DNA of 64,000 bases. It comes from Sulfuriferula plumbiphila. Lineage in GTDB: Bacteria; Pseudomonadota; Gammaproteobacteria; Burkholderiales; Sulfuriferulaceae. Each line of letters opens with the position of its first letter. Positions within the stretch are counted from its first letter, which is position 1. The notes below the pieces were generated by a model. The model saw nothing but the letters and a program-made list of their open reading frames with translations. It ran no database searches and was not told where the DNA came from. This document shows positions 40,597 through 51,623 of this stretch, piece after piece. The DNA is taken from positions 2,219,501 through 2,283,500 of the forward strand of contig NZ_AP021884.1 of the NCBI RefSeq assembly GCF_009938015.1. The letters run 5' to 3'. The position numbers and the translations under genes were made by a program.

Positions 40597-41865
40597 TTAT
40601 TTGAGCTTTTTGATCCCCAGGGCGCCGAGTACATATTTCTCGTACAGTGGTTCGGTGGTGCCTTTCTTCATCTTGCGGATGAAGTATTTTTCGAACGCGA
40701 CTTTAGCCAGATGCACCCACTTGCCTTCCCTGAACCAGTTGACGTTGCGCGGCGGTATCTGCGGCAGCGCCACAAAGGCCGCGCCGGTATCACCGAAGTC
40801 CGCCAGACAGATGGCGTTCCAGGTGGCTTTTTCCATCGGCTCCTTGCCATCCAGTGCGTTGCGGATATTGTGCGCAGTGGCGGTGACCATGGATTCGATC
40901 ATGTAACCGGTCTTGGGCGCGCCGGTCGGCACCGGGGTGACTTCCACCGGGGGAATGGCGACACACACGCCCACCGAATAGATGTTCTGGAACCTGGGGT
41001 TGCGCTGGTACGGATCAATCAGGATGAAACCGCGCGGGTTGGTCAGGCCCTCAATACCCAACACCGCGTCTACGCCTTTAAACGCGGGCAGCATCATGGC
41101 GTAGTTGAACGGCAGCTCGTGCTCCTTTTTCACGCTGCCGTCGTCGTTGAGTTCCGTGACGAACATTTTGCCCGCCTCGATTCTGGTGGTTTTGGCATTG
41201 CATATCCACTTGATATGGCGGTCACGCATGGCGGCTTCCAGCAAGCCCTTGGAATCGCCCACGCCGCCCAGGCCGAGGTGGCCGATGTATGGCTCGGCGG
41301 TGACGAAAGTCATCGGCACCTTGTCGCGTATCTTGCGGCGCTTGAGGTCTGTATCCATGATGAAGACATACTCGTAGGCCGGGCCGTAGCAGGAGGCCAT
41401 CTGCACCGCCCCCACCACGATCGGGCCCGGACTGGCGCAAAAATCATCCCATTTTTGGGCGGCTTTTTCAGCGTGATCGACATGGCAAATCGAGTGGGTA
41501 TGCCCCTCAGGGCCCAGACCGGGAACTTCGTCAAACGCCAGTTTGGGGCCGGTGGCGATAATCAGGTAATCGTAATCGACGTGACGGCCATCCATCAGCT
41601 CGACCTGGTTTTTGTCCGGGTGCACGCGTTTGGCGCCGCTGTGGATGAAATCGATGCCTTTCTTATTCAGGTAAGATGCAATGGGAAAGGCGATGTCTGC
41701 ACGGGTGCGCCATTTCACGCCCACCCAGGGGTTGGAAGGGACAAAGTGGAAAGTATCCGTGTCGGAAATGACCGTCACCTGGTCTTCCTTGCGCGCCTGC
41801 TCGCGCATTTCGTAGGCCATGGGCATGCCGCCTATGCCTGCGCCAATGATAACGATGTGTGCCAT
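40597..41865 (-). CDS. sqr: Type I sulfide:quinone oxidoreductase
   Basis: SQR oxidises sulfide to polysulfide/sulfur and passes electrons through FAD to the quinone pool at the membrane. The 422-residue protein closely follows the Acidithiobacillus ferrooxidans enzyme as I remember it: an N-terminal FAD fold (VIIGAGIGGMPMAYEM), FVPSNPWVGV, YLIIATGPKLAFD, and the three essential cysteines in SICHVDH (C127), MASCYGP (C159) and NAICLADFG (C353). The C-terminal VHLAKVAFEKYFIRKMKKG is the amphipathic membrane anchor. It is divergent from a sigma-54 activator, with a sigma-54 promoter and tandem palindromes between them. Confidence 0.96.
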   Translation of the reverse strand: MAHIVIIGAGIGGMPMAYEMREQARKEDQVTVISDTDTFHFVPSNPWVGVKWRTRADIAFPIASYLNKKGIDFIHSGAKRVHPDKNQVELMDGRHVDYDYLIIATGPKLAFDEVPGLGPEGHTHSICHVDHAEKAAQKWDDFCASPGPIVVGAVQMASCYGPAYEYVFIMDTDLKRRKIRDKVPMTFVTAEPYIGHLGLGGVGDSKGLLEAAMRDRHIKWICNAKTTRIEAGKMFVTELNDDGSVKKEHELPFNYAMMLPAFKGVDAVLGIEGLTNPRGFILIDPYQRNPRFQNIYSVGVCVAIPPVEVTPVPTGAPKTGYMIESMVTATAHNIRNALDGKEPMEKATWNAICLADFGDTGAAFVALPQIPPRNVNWFREGKWVHLAKVAFEKYFIRKMKKGTTEPLYEKYVLGALGIKKLK

Positions 41866-41945: not shown

Positions 41946-41961
41946 AGCAATACTCATGCCA
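41946..41961 (-). promoter_or_regulatory. Sigma-54 promoter of sqr
   Basis: On the minus strand TGGCAT-GAGTA-TTGCT matches the -24/-12 consensus (TGGCAC-N5-TTGCW) in all but one base. Its -12 lies about 80 bases before the sqr start. Two similar promoters occur in the neighbouring genes. Confidence 0.85.
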
Positions 41962-42095: not shown

Positions 42096-43457
42096 ATGGA
42101 TACTTTGCTTGCACCGGAACTTCAATCCCTGATTGACGTACAGGAAAACCCTTTCGTGCTGATAGACGAAAATTACCGCATCGTCGCGGCCAACCGTGCT
42201 TATTGCGTTACCTATGACATGGATAGAAACGAAGTGGTGGGAAAAACGTGCCACGAGGTATCGCACCGTTCTCCTGTTCCCTGCCACCAGAATGGCGAGG
42301 ATTGCCCGCATCAGGAAGTGTTTCGTAGCGGCCAGCCGCATGAGGTTATCCATACCCATTTCGACCGCCATAACCGTCCGGAATATGCGCGTATCAAGGG
42401 GCACCCGATTCAAGGCTCGGGCAACCAACGCTACCTGGGAGAAGCGATTTTCCACATCGCCAGCTCGGATGAACTGGACTGCGAAGACATGCGCATGATC
42501 GGCAATTCGCCGGCTTTTCTCGCCTGCCTTGACCAGCTCAGCCGGGCGGCAGAATCCGAGGCCGCCATCCTGCTGCTGGGCGAAAGCGGTGTCGGCAAGG
42601 AACTGGCGGCGCAATACATTCATCGCCGCTCGACGCGGCGCAACAAGCCCTTCATCGCGGTGAACTGCGCCTCGATTGCGGAGACCATGTTCGAGGATGA
42701 ACTGTTTGGTCACGAGCGCGGGGCATTTACCGGATGTATTGGAAGACGCCAGGGTTTATTCGAGCTGGCAGACGGCGGCACCCTGTTTCTGGATGAAGTC
42801 GGCGAAATCCCGCCCACCATGCAGGCCAAGCTGTTGCGGGTACTGGAGAGCGGGGAGTTCCGTCGCCTCGGCGCCACCGGCACCCTGCACGCCGATGTGC
42901 GGCTGATCTCCGCCACCAACCGCGACCTGCTGGAGATGGCCGAAACCAACCACTTCCGTCTTGATCTGTATTACCGTATCGCCGGCATTGACCTGCGCCT
43001 GCCCAGCCTGAAGGAGCGCAGCAGCGACATCCCGGCACTGGCGGAAGCTATGCTCAAACGCATTACCCAGGCGGGTGCGCCACGTTGCAGACTCACCGAC
43101 GACGCCGTTGAAAAATTGATGCGGCATAGCTTTCCGGGCAATGTGCGGGAACTGCGCAATATTTTGCTGAAAGCCGTGGCCATGAGCAGCCACGGCATCA
43201 TCAGCGCCGCGCATATCCACCTGCGCAGTCATTCATCCATACACAACCATGACCATGCCCCTTCCGAAGTTCCTGCCAGCGACCCGGCCAAGACAGGGAT
43301 GAGCAAGCCACATGGGACCTCCATCGCGGAACTGGAGGCACATCACATCGCCGGGCTGTTGGTCAGACACAACGGCCATCGCCGCAATGTGGCGGATTCA
43401 CTGGGTATCAGCGCACGCACCCTCTACCGCAAGCTGAAGCATTACAATCTGGCCTAA
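42096..43457 (+). CDS. PAS-containing sigma-54-dependent activator, divergent to sqr
   Basis: The protein has a PAS domain (about residues 10-115) with three cysteines (C52, C63, C70) in GKTCHEVSHR and PCHQNGEDCP, an AAA+ domain (LLGESGVGKELAA Walker A, GTLFLDEVGEIP Walker B, PGNVRELRN) and a C-terminal Fis-type helix-turn-helix (RNVADSLGISARTLYRKL). The sigma-54 contact loop reads GAFTGC, not GAFTGA. Its histidine-rich linker (HSSIHNHDHAP) is near residue 380. An AGGAAAA ribosome-binding site precedes the ATG. The cysteines could sense sulfide or redox state; this is inference. Confidence 0.93.
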   Translation: MDTLLAPELQSLIDVQENPFVLIDENYRIVAANRAYCVTYDMDRNEVVGKTCHEVSHRSPVPCHQNGEDCPHQEVFRSGQPHEVIHTHFDRHNRPEYARIKGHPIQGSGNQRYLGEAIFHIASSDELDCEDMRMIGNSPAFLACLDQLSRAAESEAAILLLGESGVGKELAAQYIHRRSTRRNKPFIAVNCASIAETMFEDELFGHERGAFTGCIGRRQGLFELADGGTLFLDEVGEIPPTMQAKLLRVLESGEFRRLGATGTLHADVRLISATNRDLLEMAETNHFRLDLYYRIAGIDLRLPSLKERSSDIPALAEAMLKRITQAGAPRCRLTDDAVEKLMRHSFPGNVRELRNILLKAVAMSSHGIISAAHIHLRSHSSIHNHDHAPSEVPASDPAKTGMSKPHGTSIAELEAHHIAGLLVRHNGHRRNVADSLGISARTLYRKLKHYNLA

Positions 43458-43670: not shown

Positions 43671-43782
43671 AAGAAGTGTTTCTTCATTTCAATACTATTA
43701 TTGTTTTTCAATATGTTATGTGCAACAAGCTTATTTTAAGCAGGAAATTGAAATCGATGAAGCGCAAGCGCAAACACATAAC
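43671..43782 (+). promoter_or_regulatory. Candidate upstream activator region of the CS2 hydrolase gene
   Basis: The 480-base gap from 43458 to 43937 has no credible gene. Between 60 and 140 bases before the sigma-54 promoter are a palindrome AAGAA-GTGT-TTCTT (43671-43684), TGTT-ATGTGC-AACA (43714-43727) and the half-sites GTTATGTG (43715) and CACATAAC (43775). Any of them could bind one of the activators. Also present: CTGCCA-GGCAA-TGGCAG at 43611. A firm operator cannot be chosen. Confidence 0.3.
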
Positions 43783-43809: not shown

Positions 43810-43825
43810 TGGCATGAGGCTTGCT
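43810..43825 (+). promoter_or_regulatory. Sigma-54 promoter of the CS2 hydrolase gene
   Basis: TGGCAT-GAGGC-TTGCT fits the -24/-12 consensus with one mismatch and shares that same mismatch (T at position 6) with the sqr and osmC promoters. The predicted start site lies about 100 bases before the ATG at 43938. Confidence 0.87.
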
Positions 43826-43937: not shown

Positions 43938-44591
43938 ATGACGACTCTCAAAGAGCAACTGAGCACACACGTCGCTGCATACGACCACTGGGCAACGCGT
44001 CGCCGCTATGGACCGGATGGGCATAACAACCGACGCTTGTGGGTACTTGCCTGCATGGACGAACGCCTGCCGGTAGACGAAGCGCTCGGGATTCACGTAG
44101 ACACACCGGCTGGAGGAGGCGATGCGCACTGCTTCCGCAATGCCGGGGGAATCGTCACCGACGATGCGATCCGTTCGGCGATGCTGACTTGCAATTTCTT
44201 TGGCACCAAGGAAATCGTCATCGTGCAGCATACGCAGTGCGGCATGCTGTCGGCGAATGCGGCCGATCTGGAAAAGATGTTACGCGACAAGGGGATCGAT
44301 ACGGACAATATCGCAATGGACCCGACGCTGCCAGAGTTGAAGCTGGCGAACGGCGCATTCGCCAAGTGGATTGGGATGATGGACGACGTGGACGAAACCT
44401 GCATGAAGACAGTCGAGACATTCAAAAATCACCCCCTCATTCCCAAGGATACGGTCATTAGCGGCTGGGTCTGGGAGGTTGAGACGCGTCGACTGCGGGC
44501 GCCGACCCGGGATCCTGAAAAACGGGCAAGAACCGATGTCACCTCAGCCCCATTCGGCGTCAAGGGGAAGCAACCGCCGCGCTGGAGCTAG
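43938..44591 (+). CDS. Carbon disulfide / carbonyl sulfide hydrolase (beta-carbonic-anhydrase family)
   Basis: CS2 hydrolases convert CS2 via COS to CO2 and H2S with a zinc site of carbonic-anhydrase type. Seen: zinc ligands C39 (in LACMDERL, with the D41/R43 pair), H98 and C101 (in QHTQCGM), and the FRNAGG loop. The protein is 217 residues. Known from memory of the published Acidithiobacillus thiooxidans comparison: the S1p enzyme has insertions PD at 26-27 and TPAGGG at 56-61 plus a longer C-terminal tail; exactly these residues occur here at exactly these numbers. The ligand spacing also agrees with the Acidianus enzyme (C35, H88, C91) after adding the insertions. Sigma-54 promoter, sulfide oxidases and a FadL channel around it support the assignment. 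A plain carbonic anhydrase is the alternative. Confidence 0.9.
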   Translation: MTTLKEQLSTHVAAYDHWATRRRYGPDGHNNRRLWVLACMDERLPVDEALGIHVDTPAGGGDAHCFRNAGGIVTDDAIRSAMLTCNFFGTKEIVIVQHTQCGMLSANAADLEKMLRDKGIDTDNIAMDPTLPELKLANGAFAKWIGMMDDVDETCMKTVETFKNHPLIPKDTVISGWVWEVETRRLRAPTRDPEKRARTDVTSAPFGVKGKQPPRWS

Positions 44592-44691: not shown

Positions 44692-44943
44692 ATGCCAGCT
44701 TATGATTACCTGTGTACACAATGCAAGCTGCAATTCGAAGCACGCCATGCAATCAACGCGCCCAGCCCGGATTGCCCGGCATGTGGGGGCGCGACCGAAA
44801 AAGTGATCCTCTCTGCCCCGGCGATGCATGGCCATATGGCGCGCGGTCGTGATCTGGCGATGCGCTCGCTGCAGCCGAAACCGGGGCAGGAGAAACACAC
44901 GCACGGACCGGGATGCGGATGTGGGCATCACCAACATTCTTAA
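44692..44943 (+). CDS. FmdB-family zinc ribbon protein
   Basis: The 83-residue protein has the FmdB zinc ribbon (YDYLCTQCKLQFEA … DCPACGGATEKVI) and a histidine/cysteine tail (HGPGCGCGHHQHS) that could bind another metal ion. The family is often encoded next to amide, nitrile or C1-compound hydrolases. A GGGAGA ribosome-binding site precedes the ATG. A role in metal delivery to the hydrolase is speculation. Confidence 0.9.
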   Translation: MPAYDYLCTQCKLQFEARHAINAPSPDCPACGGATEKVILSAPAMHGHMARGRDLAMRSLQPKPGQEKHTHGPGCGCGHHQHS

Positions 44944-45062
44944 ACACAATCAATTTTTTGGTATAGCCTGGAGACATAGCCACCGTAGAATCTTGGAATG
45001 GCTAAGCCCGCGCGCAACAGCGGCGACTTGCGATAGCGGTGCCGGATTTGAGGAGAATGACT

Positions 45063-46691
45063 ATGCCCGATAAGTTTTTTTCCCATCTTAATCCCATCCT
45101 GTTTTTGCAAACCTTTGTTGCCCAGAGCATCGAGGTCAGCGCAAAGATGGGGGGCGGCAAAGGGAATGACCGCCTAAATTACATCGAGCAGCTCGGTCTC
45201 ACCGCGAGCGGCTGTTTTGAGACCGCGTACCGACAGGAGTCTGGGCAAGACGGATCCCTGGATCATGGCAAGTACGCGGACATGATTGTGGAGATCAAGA
45301 ATAAGATCGGCGGAAATTTTTCCCGTGCATCCAGCGAACCGGGCATGGTACGGGTGGTCAATACGCGCTGCCCCTTCGGAGAAGCCGTCATGCAGGCGCC
45401 GGAGCTGTGCAAGATGACTTCCAGCGTATTCGGCGGGATTGCAGCCCGCAACTTCGGTTACGCGAAAGTGATCCTGGACAAACGCATTGCGGTGGGAAAC
45501 GGGATGTGCGAGGTGCGCATTTATACCGACCCCAAGAAAGCCGCCGCCTTTGAGGGAGACGAATATCACCGGGAACAGGGGGTTATCCGTGGTCGGGCAG
45601 CTACAGTCAAAGCGCAGATCACTAGAGAGCGGCGCGACGGAAAAGCATGGTGCGGTGTCAGCCCGAGCCAGCCCGAGGATGCCGACAAACCTTTCGTTGT
45701 GGCGAAGTCCCCGGCCATGCTCAATGCGCTGGAGACAATCAAGGTCGTGGCACCGACCACCGCGACCGTGCTGATTACCGGTGAGACCGGCGTGGGCAAG
45801 GAGGTCATTGCCCGTCGCATCCACGCTTTGAGTGAACGCTGGAACAGGAATTTCGTCGCGGTGAACTGCGGCGCAATACCCGAAAACCTGGTCGAAACCA
45901 CACTATTCGGACATGAGCGCGGGGCGTTTACCGGCGCCTACGAAGTCCATCACGGCCTGTTTGAGCAGGCAGAGGGCGGAAGCCTGTTTCTTGACGAGAT
46001 CGATTCCTTGCCGCTCGCCGCCCAGGCACGTCTCTTGCGCGTGCTGCAGGGCGGGGAATTCGAGCGGGTAGGCGGGAAGCAGCGCCTGTCCGCAAATGTT
46101 CGGGTGATCGCCGCGGCCAGTATGCGTCTGGACAAGTTCATTGCCGAGGGGACTTTCCGGATGGATCTCTATTACCGGATAAACGTGGTGCCTATCCTTC
46201 TCCCGCCGCTACGCGAACGATGCGAGGATATTTTGCCGCTCGTCAATCATATTCTTGCCCAACTCTCCGCGAGGTACAATAAAGTCATCAAAGCATTAAG
46301 CGAGACCGCAATAGCGCAGCTGATGCAGCACGATTGGCCTGGCAACGTACGCGAGCTGGAGAACGTACTGGAGCGCTCGTTCCTGTTCTCACCCGGCCCG
46401 ATTATGACCCAACTGCTGCTTCCCCAAACCAGCGGCGCCACACCCGCGAGCGCCGTACAAGCCGTTGACCTGTCCCTCAAGGAGGCGAAACAGCGGGCTG
46501 CTGAACAGGTGGAGACGCTGATCCTCAAGGAGGCGCTTACCCGGTTCCGCGGCAATGTCAGCGAGATAGCGAAGTCTTTGGGAGTTACGCCAAGGGCGAT
46601 TCATCAGAAGCTCAATTTACACGGCATGGACCCCAACAGTTACCGCTCCCAGGCAAGGCTCAAAGTCGCACACCCGGATACAGGGAGGTAG
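45063..46691 (+). CDS. Sigma-54-dependent activator with a cysteine-bearing sensor domain
   Basis: The 542-residue protein has an N-terminal sensory domain (about residues 1-175) with cysteines in NTRCPFGEAV, PELCKMTSSVF and NGMCEVRIYT, the pattern of the methanogen output domain (MetOD1) family; then an AAA+ domain (LITGETGVGKEVIARR, GAFTGAYEVHHG, GGSLFLDEIDSLP) and a Fis-type helix-turn-helix (VSEIAKSLGVTPRAIHQKL). ATG at 45063 follows GAGGAG by seven bases. It is the likely activator of the hydrolase and osmC-fadL promoters. Sensing of CS2, COS or sulfide by the N-terminal domain is inference. Confidence 0.9.
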   Translation: MPDKFFSHLNPILFLQTFVAQSIEVSAKMGGGKGNDRLNYIEQLGLTASGCFETAYRQESGQDGSLDHGKYADMIVEIKNKIGGNFSRASSEPGMVRVVNTRCPFGEAVMQAPELCKMTSSVFGGIAARNFGYAKVILDKRIAVGNGMCEVRIYTDPKKAAAFEGDEYHREQGVIRGRAATVKAQITRERRDGKAWCGVSPSQPEDADKPFVVAKSPAMLNALETIKVVAPTTATVLITGETGVGKEVIARRIHALSERWNRNFVAVNCGAIPENLVETTLFGHERGAFTGAYEVHHGLFEQAEGGSLFLDEIDSLPLAAQARLLRVLQGGEFERVGGKQRLSANVRVIAAASMRLDKFIAEGTFRMDLYYRINVVPILLPPLRERCEDILPLVNHILAQLSARYNKVIKALSETAIAQLMQHDWPGNVRELENVLERSFLFSPGPIMTQLLLPQTSGATPASAVQAVDLSLKEAKQRAAEQVETLILKEALTRFRGNVSEIAKSLGVTPRAIHQKLNLHGMDPNSYRSQARLKVAHPDTGR

Positions 46692-46886
46692 CGGGCACCA
46701 GGGTTCTATCGCCAATGTTAGTAGCGGTGGAACACACCTTATACCAGTGCTTATGATGGTGTGATATCGTTGGCTTGCAAATTTTTGACTGAATATCCGG
46801 CCAAATCCGGATGGTAGCAGGAAATAAAATTTCACAGTGGATCAATTCTTTTCGTATTCACTTTCCCCCTGTTTATTTAGGCCTTT

Positions 46887-46935
46887 TGTTTGTAAACAGC
46901 CATCACCTCCAGGAAGTGTTGTTTCTGACTACCCA
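46887..46935 (+). promoter_or_regulatory. Candidate upstream activator region of the osmC-fadL unit
   Basis: The 344-base gap after the activator gene has no long coding frame. TGTTT-GT-AAACA (46887-46898) is a perfect palindrome about 85 bases before the sigma-54 promoter, followed by AGGAAGTGTTGTTTCTGA, similar to a palindrome upstream of the hydrolase promoter. Either may be an enhancer site. Confidence 0.3.
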
Positions 46936-46979
46936 GCCACAGAATATCATAACGCACTGTATTAAAACATAATTTATTA

Positions 46980-46995
46980 TGGCATAAGTATTGCT
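46980..46995 (+). promoter_or_regulatory. Sigma-54 promoter of the luxR'-osmC-fadL unit
   Basis: TGGCAT-AAGTA-TTGCT is the third copy of this promoter type. Its -12 is about 40 bases before the small LuxR-type gene. Confidence 0.87.
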
Positions 46996-47035
46996 ATATT
47001 CCCTGTAGCCTGTCATTCATACCGGGGAGAAAGTA

Positions 47036-47215
47036 ATGGAAAAATATTTATATGCGGCCACTGCTGTCCGGAGATTTCCGGGGTGGTTCAATGCATATGA
47101 ACTGGGTGTGAGTTGGAAAACCATCGAAGTGCATCGTGCCAATGCAATGCGCAAAATGCAGGCCAATTCGCTCTCCGAATTGGTCGGAATGGTACTCCAC
47201 CTGCGCGCCGCCTAA
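47036..47215 (+). CDS. Isolated LuxR/FixJ-type helix-turn-helix mini-protein or gene remnant
   Basis: The 59-residue frame has GGGGAGA seven bases before the ATG. From residue 20 on it matches the recognition half of LuxR/FixJ domains: YELGVSWKTIEVHRANAMRK and then MQANSLSELVGMV. The first HTH helix and any receiver are absent. It could be a decayed response regulator, or a small expressed DNA-binding protein since it has a good ribosome-binding site and sits directly behind a sigma-54 promoter. No clear decision is possible. Confidence 0.6.
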   Translation: MEKYLYAATAVRRFPGWFNAYELGVSWKTIEVHRANAMRKMQANSLSELVGMVLHLRAA

Positions 47216-47387: not shown

Positions 47388-47951
47388 ATGTCTCAAGCAT
47401 CAGTTAAAGCAGCTCTGCTCAACACGATCGAATCGATCAAAGCCAACCCTGGCGCAGCGCGCCTTGTCTTCCGTGCCGACACCGAGTTGGTCGAGGACGT
47501 TCGTTGTAGCGCGAAGGTGCGGGATTTTGCGTCAATCACCGTAACCGAACCTCCGGCGCTGGGAGGTAAAGATGAGGCTATGAGTCCCGTTGAGCTCGTG
47601 CTGGTCGCGCTCGGAACCTGTCAGGAGATTATGTATGGCGCATACGCCTCCGTGATGGGGGTCCCGTTGTCCAAGGTCAAGGTGGGAGTGAAGGGTAATC
47701 TCGATTTGCGGGGCCTCTTCGCCATGGATGACGCTGTGCCGCCAGGCTTCCAGAAGGTGACTTTCGAAACCACCATCGACAGCGCGGCGGACGAAGCGAC
47801 CATCAAGAAGCTGATCGAAACCGTGGAAAGCCATTGCCCGGTACTGGACACGCTGGTGCGTGCTATCGAGGTCACGGGGAAGGTATCGATCAACGGCGGG
47901 CCCATGAAATCACTCCAGTCACACCAAGAAGCCGCAGTCACTGGAGCCTAA
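47388..47951 (+). CDS. OsmC-family thiol peroxidase-like protein
   Basis: The 187-residue protein has the OsmC/Ohr fold with its two redox cysteines in LGTCQEIMYG (C78) and ESHCPVLD (C150). OsmC proteins reduce organic hydroperoxides; in a CS2/sulfide context the dithiol may instead handle sulfane sulfur or reactive sulfur species (inference). A GGAGGAG ribosome-binding site lies before the ATG. It precedes the FadL gene by 41 bases. Confidence 0.93.
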   Translation: MSQASVKAALLNTIESIKANPGAARLVFRADTELVEDVRCSAKVRDFASITVTEPPALGGKDEAMSPVELVLVALGTCQEIMYGAYASVMGVPLSKVKVGVKGNLDLRGLFAMDDAVPPGFQKVTFETTIDSAADEATIKKLIETVESHCPVLDTLVRAIEVTGKVSINGGPMKSLQSHQEAAVTGA

Positions 47952-47992
47952 GAAAAAAATTGAAAATTCCAAAAACTTAAAGGAGGCAGTAA

Positions 47993-49189
47993 ATGAAGAA
48001 AATATGTGCTGTAGTTGCACTTGTTTTGGGAGCCGCTTCTGCAGCGAATGCGGCAAATTACGGTACCGACCTTAACCTCACCATGCTGCCCGCTTCGGGT
48101 GGCATGGCAGGGGTAGGGATCGCGAACCCGCTGGAACCTGCCGCAGCTGTATTCGGCAATCCGGCAACGCTCGCGAACTTCAATAGTGGCACCTCCTTTT
48201 CTTTTGGGGCTACATTCTATAGACCGCAGGTCAGAGCCCAACACAATGGGGGAGATACCGGGACAGCCTGGAGTGCCGACTCGAAGGCGGGCGATTATCT
48301 GGTTCCTGCCGTCGCCGTTACGCAGCCGATCAGCCAGGACACAGTATTGGGGCTTGGTCTGACCGCCATCTCTGGAGTGGGGTCAGATTTTCGCGGAACG
48401 CCCGGTAGTCTGGATCCGCTTGCCGAACTCGTGTTATTCGGCGCCAACGTGGGTATAGCACACCGGGTGAACGATAACCTCGATATCGGTGGCGCCGTTA
48501 CCATCGGCAACGGTTTCTTCCAGGCGGGCCTTTCTTCCAATACCGCGACGCGCCACGCATTTGGCTGGCGCGGGGCGCTCGGCGCCAACTACCACGTTGG
48601 GCAGACGGCAGCGGGCGTCTATTACCGCAGCAAGCTCTCGATAAAGTATAAAGATGTTGTGAATTATGCCTCGAACGCCTTCTGGGATCTGACAGTCGAG
48701 CAACCGGAAGAAGTTGGGATGGGCTTGTCAAATTCTTCACTGCTTGACGGAAAGCTTCTCTTGGCTGCCGATGTGATCTGGAAGAACTGGGAGGGCGCAA
48801 AATTCTACCAGGACATTTATAAGAACCAGACCGTTGTGGCGCTCGGTGCTCAACTGACCCAAGGAAAAGCGAAGTGGCGGGTTGGCTACAGTCATGTCAA
48901 TAGCCCGATCAAGGGCGGCGTTGGATCGAATGTCGGCGAAGCGACATCGCTTGCCTACAACGGTACCAATATTCCCCTCACCCCATCTTTGGTCCGTTAT
49001 CTGCAAGCGACAAACGCAGAAGTAATTTGGACAGACCAGGTGACACTTGGTTTAGGCTACGAACTGACCAAGAACATGCAGATGGATACGCACGTGGGAA
49101 CAGCCCTCAGCCGGGATGAGACGATCGGCAACACGAAAGTAAATGCCAAGACGTGGCAAATTGGCGTGGGCCTCACTTGGAAGTTCTGA
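47993..49189 (+). CDS. OmpP1/FadL/TodX-family outer-membrane channel
   Basis: A signal peptide (MKKICAVVALVLGAASAANA) is followed by the NPA motif (FGNPATLANF) and a beta-barrel of about 14 strands ending in GVGLTWKF with the C-terminal phenylalanine. FadL-type channels take up hydrophobic molecules such as fatty acids, toluene and other solvents. Next to a CS2 hydrolase it would admit CS2. AAAGGAGG precedes the ATG. Confidence 0.93.
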   Translation: MKKICAVVALVLGAASAANAANYGTDLNLTMLPASGGMAGVGIANPLEPAAAVFGNPATLANFNSGTSFSFGATFYRPQVRAQHNGGDTGTAWSADSKAGDYLVPAVAVTQPISQDTVLGLGLTAISGVGSDFRGTPGSLDPLAELVLFGANVGIAHRVNDNLDIGGAVTIGNGFFQAGLSSNTATRHAFGWRGALGANYHVGQTAAGVYYRSKLSIKYKDVVNYASNAFWDLTVEQPEEVGMGLSNSSLLDGKLLLAADVIWKNWEGAKFYQDIYKNQTVVALGAQLTQGKAKWRVGYSHVNSPIKGGVGSNVGEATSLAYNGTNIPLTPSLVRYLQATNAEVIWTDQVTLGLGYELTKNMQMDTHVGTALSRDETIGNTKVNAKTWQIGVGLTWKF

Positions 49190-49203
49190 GATACAGCTCC
49201 CGG

Positions 49204-49244
49204 TTTTCCCTCCACAAAGTGCCATGAGCAGGTTGGAGGGAAAA
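49204..49244 (+). terminator. Hairpin after fadL
   Basis: TTTTCCCTCCA and TGGAGGGAAAA form an 11-base-pair stem around a 19-base loop, 15 bases after the fadL stop. It lacks a 3' T-run and is only a probable terminator. Confidence 0.5.
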
Positions 49245-49351
49245 TTGGGGAGAAGTGATCGACCGGATGCGCCGGTTCGTAAATTCTAAAGATAATCGGC
49301 GGTGAAACTATGTCCAGCACATTGTAACGCTGGTACAGAACGTGGCGATAC

Positions 49352-49369
49352 CCGCCCATTCGTGGGCGG
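49352..49369. repeat. GC-rich hairpin with TTCG loop
   Basis: CCGCCCA-TTCG-TGGGCGG is a stable tetraloop hairpin in the 321-base gap between fadL and the sulfide dehydrogenase gene. It may be a terminator or RNA stabiliser. Confidence 0.45.
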
Positions 49370-49459
49370 TTAGTCGGACTATTTCAGAATAGATCGTCAC
49401 CGAAGCGGGTAGAAATGTAAAAAAACAACACATAACCCTTCATATTCCAGCGCGGCTTC

Positions 49460-49465
49460 TATAAT
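49460..49465 (+). promoter_or_regulatory. -10 element of the sulfide dehydrogenase gene
   Basis: A perfect TATAAT lies 46 bases before the ATG at 49511; the best -35 is CTTCAT at 16-base spacing, weak. Unlike the other genes of the island, no sigma-54 promoter was found here. Confidence 0.4.
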
Positions 49466-49510
49466 AGGGAGCGACGCATATACCACTATAAAACGGAGGA
49501 GGACTTAATC

Positions 49511-50860
49511 ATGAACCACAATCCCAAACTGACACGGCGCGATTTTTTCAAAATGAGTGGCGCTGCTGCCGCGACCTTGGCGCTAGGCACCGGTGCATCG
49601 GCACCTGCAAATGTCCAGGCCGCCACCCTGTCACTCGGCACCCATGTGAAAGCCTCGTTACCCAAAGCCAAAGGCCCGCGCCTGGTGGTGGTGGGGGCGG
49701 GCACCTCGGGCTTGACCATCGCCAAATACGCGAAAAAAGCCTATCCCAGGTTTGACGTGGTGATGGTAGAAAAGCGCGATATGTATTCCTCCTGCTTTTC
49801 CAGCAATCTGTGGTACGCCGACCTGATCAACCTCGAATTTCTGGCCAATCACAGTTTCCTCGACGCGGCGCGCAATAACCACTACATTTTCTTCAATGCC
49901 ACCTGTACCGGACTCGACCGCGCTGGGCGCAAGCTCATGACCAACATGGGTGAAATCGATTACGACTACCTGGTACTCGCTCCCGGTATCGATTACGACT
50001 ACAGCCGCATCGGCGTCAGCGACGCGGAAAGCGAAACGCTGCTGCGCACCGACTATCCCGCCGGCTGGACCATGCCCACCGAGCACGTCACCATCCGCGA
50101 CAAGATTCACGGTTTCGATGGCGGCCTGTTCATCCAGACGGTGCCGGGCGGCAACTACCGCTGTCTCCCCGCGCCTTACGAGCGTGCCTGCATGATTGCC
50201 TCTTACTTCAAGAAAAACAGGATCAAGGGCAAGGTGCTGGTGCTTGACCACAACCCCGACATCACCATCAAGGCCAAAGGCTTCCACGCAGCGTTTGATG
50301 AACTGTACAAAGACTACATCGAGTACAAGCCTTCCGCCGAGATCAAGGGTGTGGATGTAGCGAAGAAGATCATCAAAACCGAGTTCGACAGCTACCGCTT
50401 CGACGACGCCGCCATTTATCCTGGTGTGCGTGGCGCACGCATCATCGAAACCTTCGGTCTGGTTGACCCCAACAGCAACCAGAAAGAAGCCAACATTGAT
50501 GGTTTCAAGTACCACGTCATTGGCGATGAACGCGTCTATGTCACCGGTGACTCGCGCCCCATGCCTTACTCCAAGAGCGCCAACACCGCCAACACCGAGG
50601 GCAAGTACGTTGCCAAAGTGCTCGCCGCACACGCCCAAGGCAAGAGCATCAACTGGGAAAGCCCGCGCACCCTCTGCTACTCGATGGTGAATGCGGATCC
50701 GATGGAGGCCATCAGCGTGGACGCCGGTTATGCCTACGACAAGAAGAAAAAGGCGTTTGGCTTCTCCAGCGACACCAAGCTGTATGAAAACCGCGACCAG
50801 GCCAAGGGGCGTGCCACGCTGGAATGGGCGCGCGGCATTTACCGGGATTTGTTCGCTTGA
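49511..50860 (+). CDS. Flavocytochrome c-type sulfide dehydrogenase, flavoprotein subunit (FccB/SoxF-like)
   Basis: A Tat signal (TRRDFFKMSG near residues 8-17, then a hydrophobic Ala-rich core) sends the folded flavoprotein to the periplasm. The FAD fold (LVVVGAGTSGLTIAKYAKKA), YSSCFSSN with the cysteine that covalently holds FAD in Allochromatium, GGNYRCLPAPYERA and RTLCYSM with the redox cysteine pair, and YVTGDSRPMPYSKSA fit FCSD. The haem c subunit FccA is not encoded nearby; a Rieske protein follows. GGAGGAGG precedes the ATG. Confidence 0.92.
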   Translation: MNHNPKLTRRDFFKMSGAAAATLALGTGASAPANVQAATLSLGTHVKASLPKAKGPRLVVVGAGTSGLTIAKYAKKAYPRFDVVMVEKRDMYSSCFSSNLWYADLINLEFLANHSFLDAARNNHYIFFNATCTGLDRAGRKLMTNMGEIDYDYLVLAPGIDYDYSRIGVSDAESETLLRTDYPAGWTMPTEHVTIRDKIHGFDGGLFIQTVPGGNYRCLPAPYERACMIASYFKKNRIKGKVLVLDHNPDITIKAKGFHAAFDELYKDYIEYKPSAEIKGVDVAKKIIKTEFDSYRFDDAAIYPGVRGARIIETFGLVDPNSNQKEANIDGFKYHVIGDERVYVTGDSRPMPYSKSANTANTEGKYVAKVLAAHAQGKSINWESPRTLCYSMVNADPMEAISVDAGYAYDKKKKAFGFSSDTKLYENRDQAKGRATLEWARGIYRDLFA

Positions 50861-50875
50861 ATCAGCAGTCAGTTC

Positions 50876-50902
50876 AAGGGGCATCATGCCCCCTTTTTTT
50901 TT
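50876..50902 (+). terminator. Intrinsic terminator between sulfide dehydrogenase and Rieske genes
   Basis: GGGGCATCATGCCCC followed by nine T's is a classic intrinsic terminator, ending only about ten bases before the Rieske ATG. It should make expression of the Rieske gene depend on read-through or on an unseen promoter. Confidence 0.85.
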
Positions 50903-50912
50903 GGGGTAGCGC

Positions 50913-51623
50913 ATGGACAGAAGGTCGTTTATAAGAATATGCAGCACTGCGGCAGCCACTGGCAGCATGGTAGCGTGCTTTTCAAAACAGGCGCAGGCAA
51001 CTGAACTGACATCGTTTGCGCGGGTGAAACTGGTGGATGCCCAGGGTCAACCCATCAAGGCCAGCGCACTCGGCAGCGCCGAGGCCTACCTATTCAATTA
51101 CCCCTACGCCAGCACGCCCAGCTTCCTCATCAATCTGGGCAAGCCGGCGCCAGACGGCAACAAGCTGGTCGCCAGCGACGGCAACGAATACGCTTGGCGC
51201 GGTGGTGTGGGCGCCAACAAATCCGTCGTCGCCTATACCGCAATTTGCGCGCATCAGCTCGCCTACCCGACCAGGGACGCGAGCCTGATTACCTACAATC
51301 CCAACACAAGCGAAATCGCCGGGCGTGGCGGCGTGATTACATGCTGTGCACATAACAGCGTGTATGACCCGGCACAGGGTGCCAGGGTATTGTCCGGGCC
51401 CGCCGCTGGGCCGCTCTCCGCAGTCGCGCTCGAATACGACGTGGCCACGGATGAACTCTATGCAACGGGCGTGTATGGCGGCACGCTGTTCGATGATTTT
51501 TTCAAGGCCTACAAGACGCAACTCAACGCTGAACTGGGCGCCGGCAAAGCCAGGGAACTGGTCACCGCGATGGCCAAGGTGGTGCCCTTTGCCGAGTACT
51601 CCAAAGTGCGTGTTCAGTGCTGA
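50913..51623 (+). CDS. Tat-exported Rieske [2Fe-2S] protein
   Basis: A Tat signal (MDRRSFIRICSTAAATGSM) is followed by a Rieske domain with C-x-H in AICAHQLAYP and C-x-x-H in TCCAHNSVYD, over about 235 residues. It may remain membrane-anchored. Its place after an FCSD flavoprotein without cytochrome subunit suggests that it takes the electrons from sulfide oxidation. A GGGG sequence serves as ribosome-binding site. Confidence 0.87.
   Translation: MDRRSFIRICSTAAATGSMVACFSKQAQATELTSFARVKLVDAQGQPIKASALGSAEAYLFNYPYASTPSFLINLGKPAPDGNKLVASDGNEYAWRGGVGANKSVVAYTAICAHQLAYPTRDASLITYNPNTSEIAGRGGVITCCAHNSVYDPAQGARVLSGPAAGPLSAVALEYDVATDELYATGVYGGTLFDDFFKAYKTQLNAELGAGKARELVTAMAKVVPFAEYSKVRVQC

Follow-up and report, generated by a model that had tools for sequence, protein, structure and literature searches.

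A predicted CS2/COS hydrolase gene of Sulfuriferula plumbiphila and its putative sigma54 promoter module

Genes and promoter features of the locus

We analyzed a stretch of 64,000 nucleotides (the window) from the 3.45 Mb genome of Sulfuriferula plumbiphila. It encodes a predicted hydrolase with a beta-carbonic anhydrase fold, a small zinc ribbon protein, two sigma54 activators, and a sulfide:quinone reductase (SQR), with sigma54-type promoter sites among them (Table 1). The translation of the hydrolase gene contains the zinc ligands C-H-C (C39, H98, and C101) and two short insertions, PD at residues 26-27 and TPAGGG at residues 56-61. These residues and the open reading frame of 217 amino acids were read identically in the first-pass annotation.

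Table 1. Predicted features around the hydrolase gene (positions within the window)
Feature	Position	Strand	Basis or remark
Sulfide:quinone reductase (SQR), divergent from PAS activator	40597..41865	-	556 bits to solved SQR 3SZ0
Sigma54 site TGGCATGAGTATTGCT before SQR gene	41946..41961	-	exact match
PAS-type sigma54 activator, FisR-like cysteine spacing	42096..43457	+	C52, C63, C70
Upstream dyad AGAAGTGTTTCTTCA, proposed activator site	43672..43686	+	one mismatch to TGAAGN5CTTCA
Sigma54 -24/-12 promoter TGGCATGAGGCTTGCT	43810..43825	+	exact match, upstream of hydrolase
Predicted CS2/COS hydrolase (beta-CA fold, S1p-type insertions)	43938..44591	+	ATG start, 217 aa; PDB match, tree, motif
FmdB-type zinc ribbon protein, 83 aa, His/Cys-rich tail	44692..44943	+	PF09723 and TIGR02605 above cut-off
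Sigma54 activator, MetOD1 (V4R/TRAPP-like) sensor	45039..46691	+	sensor cysteines C111, C124, C157 invariant
Sigma54 site TGGCATAAGTATTGCT	46980..46995	+	exact match; stretch homologous to OmpW promoter of L013/L014

Placement of the hydrolase among CS2 hydrolases

The best phmmer match in the PDB is the Acidianus CS2 hydrolase 3TEN (175 bits, E 1.4e-50, covering hydrolase residues 6-191). The next match, at 87 bits, is 3LAS, a putative carbonic anhydrase; the COS hydrolase of THI115 reaches 65 bits. Foldseek with the AlphaFold model of the protein, which is of moderate quality (pLDDT 68), also ranks 3TEN and 3TEO first, with 44% identity to the Acidianus enzyme in the alignment.

A genome scan found 113 relatives of the hydrolase, and we kept the best 80 loci (76-94% identity; numbered with an L). 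PMC6382920 gives a Phe-Phe motif as characteristic of CS2 hydrolase, and the protein encoded in the window has this motif (F87 F88). C39, D41, E42, R43, F87, F88, H98, and C101 are invariant in alignment A1, which holds 65 sequences (64 of the 80 loci and the window), and CMDER occurs in 65 of 65. Absent from A1 are L056 and 15 other loci (L017, L019, L021, L022, L024, L025, L029, L030, L034, L036, L054, L059, L066, L067, and L075). The FFG motif is found in 80 of 81 sequences and is missing from L056 alone.

In a tree of 36 rows, 20 of them from the 80 loci, a 98/98 branch unites the window protein and the 20 bacterial loci with a Mycobacterium paragordonae plasmid protein, three haloarchaeal plasmid proteins, and the Acidianus enzyme. 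COS hydrolase, Rv1284, and carbonic anhydrases fall outside this branch and have CMDAR, CMDSR, or CMDTR without FF. This tree drew a program warning about long branches that meet; the CS2 hydrolase branch reached 100/99 when the haloarchaea and the two longest rows outside it were removed. A tree joining the bacterial group to COS hydrolase was rejected (p-AU 9e-5). One joining Acidianus with the haloarchaea was not (p-AU 0.085), so the inner order of the clade is unsure. The hydrolase lies apart from the THI115-type COS hydrolases, as judged by the 3VQJ clade and its LL motif.

The first-pass annotation had called the gene a CS2 hydrolase and proposed a tree as the check. The clade and the Phe-Phe motif bear this out, as the protein joins the Acidianus enzyme and not the CO2-hydrating enzymes. 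It had also anticipated mislabelling, and close plasmid relatives are indeed annotated "carbonic anhydrase". The protein is very probably a member of the known CS2 hydrolase group, and a gene that databases would label carbonic anhydrase most likely breaks down the toxic gases CS2 (carbon disulfide) and COS (carbonyl sulfide), two candidate natural substrates that sequence alone cannot separate.

Two kinds of plasmid protein differ from the bacterial type. The haloarchaeal proteins (L084, L085, and L086), annotated carbonic anhydrase, lie in the CS2 hydrolase clade and have CMDER and FF without the bacterial insertions. The M. paragordonae plasmid (L083, 8001-8843) encodes a CS2-hydrolase-like protein with a C-terminal YHS domain.

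The insertions mark a bacterial group

In the phmmer alignment to 3TEN, gaps of 2 and 6 residues in 3TEN lie exactly opposite the two insertions. Among the best 80 of the 113 loci, all 79 intact genes have the insertion residues at 26-27 and the pattern [TSK]P[AVP]G[GHA]G at 56-61; in 13 of the 79 the letters are exactly PD and TPAGGG. The other locus, L056, was left out of protein counts because its match spans hydrolase residues 23-216 only.

The CS2 hydrolase of Acidithiobacillus thiooxidans S1p, the subject of work by Smeulders in 2013, is said to have the two insertions at the same residue numbers and in the same letters, and the S1p-type enzyme reportedly occurs as an octamer only, without a catenane. 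The first-pass annotation took this agreement to exceed chance and to be a signature of the S1p enzyme. The former part stands. The latter is ruled out, as the insertions are family-wide in the 79 intact loci; they thus mark a bacterial group that would include S1p. A full-text literature search for TPAGGG returned one paper, which is unrelated.

A conserved zinc ribbon and activator

The gene for the FmdB-type zinc ribbon follows the hydrolase gene in 76 of the 80 best loci (missing in 4), mostly with a tail bearing His and Cys. A sigma54 activator whose sensor matches that of the window is present in 73 of the 80 (missing in 7). It mostly lies downstream of the zinc ribbon or divergently upstream of the hydrolase, the latter being the arrangement in most ammonia-oxidiser loci. 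The three sensor cysteines are conserved in 73 of 73 aligned rows. The sensor alignment A2 holds 43 loci and the window; L040, L058, and L044 were omitted because the stretches named for them contain stop codons. Structural matches to the sensor model (pLDDT 78) are TRAPP/Bet3 proteins (best E 5e-4) and, lower in the list at rank 46, the MopR aromatic sensor (5KBI, E 0.018). The TRAPP/V4R fold group senses small hydrophobic ligands.

A Methylobacter plasmid has a ZIP metal transporter gene between the zinc ribbon and activator genes, and similar ZIP genes occur in 5 of the 80 best loci. Because of these neighbours and the YHS domain of the M. paragordonae protein, we predict a role in zinc supply for the zinc ribbon, which probably helps to load or keep zinc.

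Further downstream, the window encodes OsmC, FadL/TodX, an FCSD-type flavoprotein, and a Rieske-like protein (47388-51623). The OsmC and FCSD proteins have only scattered weak matches (24-28%) in the 80 best loci and are thus placed outside the conserved module.

A sigma54 promoter with an upstream dyad

We searched for the sigma54 consensus TGGCAYRN4TTGCW with at most one mismatch within 350 bp upstream of the hydrolase genes. Of 78 loci, 64 have a site (an exact one in 39) and 14 lack it, compared with an expectation of 0.0096 per 350 bp from the remainder of the same loci. With hydrolases clustered at 95% identity, 42 of 54 representatives have a site (0.0126 expected each). The window contains three exact sites (before the SQR gene, before the hydrolase gene, and at 46980) versus 0.15 in shuffles. 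In a set of closely alike ammonia-oxidiser loci (L021-L026 and L028), the site lies about 290 bp upstream rather than 130-150 bp, and most of these loci have a DsrE-like gene upstream.

The dyad TGAAGN5CTTCA (at most one mismatch) occurs in 39 of 79 upstream regions, that of the window included, versus 0.025 expected per 500 bp. It is located farther upstream than the sigma54 site and often occurs twice, 20 bp apart. The dyad was discovered in the sequences in which it was counted, so a gene-level control carries more weight: of the hydrolase genes, 35 of 62 have a sigma54 site together with a dyad (one mismatch, or exact GAAGN5CTTC) in the 400 bp before them, compared with only 4 of 507 among the remaining genes of these loci, excluding genes directly adjoining the hydrolase and open reading frames below 120 amino acids. 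The dyad alone was rejected as a genome-wide predictor, being too common (137 matches in the genome versus 49 in the reversed control). The site listing was used for its neighbourhoods only, and our regulon claim is confined to them.

Two of the four other genes encode OmpW and two a DUF938 methyltransferase, which suggests a small regulon. The DUF938 genes are in two methanotroph loci (L004, 11286-12559; L074, 7135-7857); in L004, from Methylobacter, the DUF938 gene is followed by a beta-carbonic anhydrase of another type. No OmpW gene was found in the window by tblastn; what is left is a stretch homologous to its promoter, where about 240-340 bp within 46713-47215 share 77-80% identity with the region of the OmpW promoter in L013 and L014. 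A frame there begins MEKYLYA and runs into an apparent LuxR-type fragment.

Sulfide and COS genes near the hydrolase

The cysteines of the PAS-type activator are spaced by 11 and 7 residues, a spacing that would fit the three sensing cysteines of FisR (C53, C64, and C71). The divergent SQR gene has its own sigma54 site, and SQR is also divergent from a PAS activator in L005 and L013. In 12 of the 80 best loci, genes for a mitochondrial-type SQR and TauE follow the hydrolase gene; 10 of these 12 are named Nitrosomonas, Nitrosospira, or Nitrosovibrio, and 6 of the 12 match SQR through a BLH-SQR fusion. Some also encode a metallo-beta-lactamase-fold enzyme like the persulfide dioxygenase (PDO) 4YSK.

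L071, from Thiobacillus, and L062, a near-copy of it, have a COS hydrolase gene (392 bits to THI115) immediately upstream of the hydrolase gene. Before this COS hydrolase gene stand a sigma54 site and a pair of dyads 20 bp apart. L073, the third locus from Thiobacillus, also matches COS hydrolase (94%), without the site-plus-dyad promoter in the stretch scanned.

This shared promoter type bears on the question of substrate. COS from intracellular thiocyanate could be the real substrate of the hydrolase, with CS2 incidental. The genome of the window has a gene for the gamma subunit of thiocyanate hydrolase (487 bits to 2DD4), a source of COS, and no other COS hydrolase of the beta-carbonic anhydrase family. 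A handover of COS from thiocyanate hydrolase to COS hydrolase is described in PMC6934394. Several observations point the other way: the thiocyanate hydrolase gamma gene is present in 0 of the 80 best loci within the stretches scanned, and the CS2-type enzyme is retained where a COS hydrolase exists (L062, L071, and L073). The thiocyanate hydrolase genes of the window's genome have no dyad before them in the stretch scanned, and we rejected them as regulon members. COS as the real substrate is a serious contender at somewhat below even odds.

Genome context and distribution

No other PF00484 beta-carbonic anhydrase and no PF00194 alpha-carbonic anhydrase were found in the genome of the window, which has three RuBisCO hits. 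The hydrolase is thus the sole beta-carbonic anhydrase homologue of an autotroph, so context alone cannot dismiss a role in CO2 hydration, with which the fold and the zinc ligands would agree. The clade, the Phe-Phe motif, the sulfide and COS hydrolase neighbours, and the inducible-type promoter argue against an ordinary CO2-hydrating enzyme, as does the presence of DabA about 2 kb from one of the RuBisCO hits. We regard this function as very improbable.

Gene order and identities point to kinship of this genome with Sulfuriferula and Sulfuricella. The hydrolase gene is patchy in distribution. It is found in 13 of 399 genomes of the order (E 1e-60), in 2 of 13 listed for its own genus, and in 2 of 299 of a phylum sample at full-length scores (with 6 more weak matches). 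Since identities of 76-94% extend across beta- and gammaproteobacteria, an actinobacterium, and others, the gene has probably been transferred horizontally. Some of the genome bins have odd labels and may be contaminated. L037, L010, and L051 (labelled Bacteroidetes, Acidiphilium, and Nitrospirae) have genes that are 86-90% identical and are probably in wrong bins; L037 is similar, gene for gene, to the Nitrosomonas bin L036. A search for viral copies gave 15 pattern matches, none related.

Nitrosomonadaceae names are carried by 28 of the 80 best loci and Methylococcaceae names by 8, which raises the possibility that the module serves to protect the copper monooxygenase of ammonia oxidisers and methanotrophs, with CS2 hydrolysed and the H2S oxidised and exported. 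The SQR and TauE genes of the 12 loci (10 with Nitroso- names), in some cases with the PDO-like enzyme, are consistent with such a role, and ammonia monooxygenase is inhibited by CS2 according to the title of Hyman 1990, as cited in PMC7170481. On the other hand, the 80 loci are those of the 113 closest to a betaproteobacterial query, which biases the mix of taxa; several ammonia-oxidiser loci (L020, L030, and L033) have no match to the SQR, PDO, or TauE queries; and sulfur oxidisers are left unexplained. As an account of the module, defence of the monooxygenase seems rather unlikely.

Proposed function and significance

Our preferred reading, to which we give a probability of roughly 0.8, is an S1p-type zinc-dependent CS2/COS hydrolase that is made on demand through its own sigma54 activator and whose product H2S goes to SQR. 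The sequence shows the family, clade, motif, module, and promoter architecture; the substrate, inducer, DNA binding, and role of zinc are what we infer. The enzyme would convert CS2 + 2 H2O to CO2 + 2 H2S via COS. The activator, whose gene is the second one downstream and whose sensor belongs to the small-hydrophobic-ligand fold group, would be triggered by CS2, COS, or a product; it may bind the TGAAGN5CTTCA dyads and fire the -24/-12 promoter, so that the hydrolase is made when needed. The adjoining zinc ribbon probably loads zinc into the enzyme or keeps it there, and the H2S would pass to the SQR encoded nearby.

A wider reading is that a CS2/COS-sensing sigma54 module has spread through sulfur oxidisers, ammonia oxidisers, and methanotrophs, and that in the last two it guards copper monooxygenases and makes these organisms unrecognised CS2/COS sinks. 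Its regulon would consist of the hydrolase, the zinc ribbon helper, the V4R-like activator, and tandem TGAAGN5CTTCA sites, with COS hydrolase, OmpW, or DUF938 methyltransferase as further targets. We offer this tentatively, as a conjecture that could well be wrong.

COS and CS2 rank among the important sulfur gases of the atmosphere, and research into the soil microbes and genes that remove them is still under way. A signature of CMDER, FFG, the adjoining zinc ribbon, and the sigma54 site with dyad would tell CS2 hydrolases from carbonic anhydrases in genomes, and it hints that ammonia oxidisers and methanotrophs may consume CS2/COS. A resistance module in nitrifiers would be open to direct test, since CS2 is known to inhibit the oxidation of ammonia. 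The activator also makes a candidate biosensor for CS2/COS. The putative dedicated sigma54 regulon around the CS2 hydrolase and its predicted presence in ammonia and methane oxidisers appear to be the new part, as we did not find them in print: the published literature, searched with most subscription papers out of reach, gave no paper on a CS2-hydrolase sigma54 regulon and no CS2 hydrolase report for nitrifiers or methanotrophs, both weak absences.

Comparison with known systems

The Acidianus A1-3 CS2 hydrolase (3TEN/3TEO) shares the fold, zinc ligands, CMDER, Phe-Phe motif, and clade of the hydrolase but lacks both insertions. The Thiobacillus thioparus THI115 COS hydrolase (3VQJ) also has the beta-carbonic anhydrase fold, and its ortholog in L071/L062 has the same promoter type, whereas it belongs to another clade and has CMDAR, and LL instead of FF.

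SQR, PDO, and TauE form a FisR-controlled sulfide detoxification set in Acinetobacter, according to PMC7315123. That operon resembles the loci studied here in having a sigma54 activator divergent from an SQR gene, and SQR and TauE lie beside the hydrolase in 12 loci; the passages on it in PMC7315123 name no CS2/COS hydrolase. MopR-type sigma54 activators, with V4R sensors, share the sensor fold group and the AAA+/Fis architecture of the downstream activator, whose sensor differs in that TRAPP proteins score above the MopR sensor.
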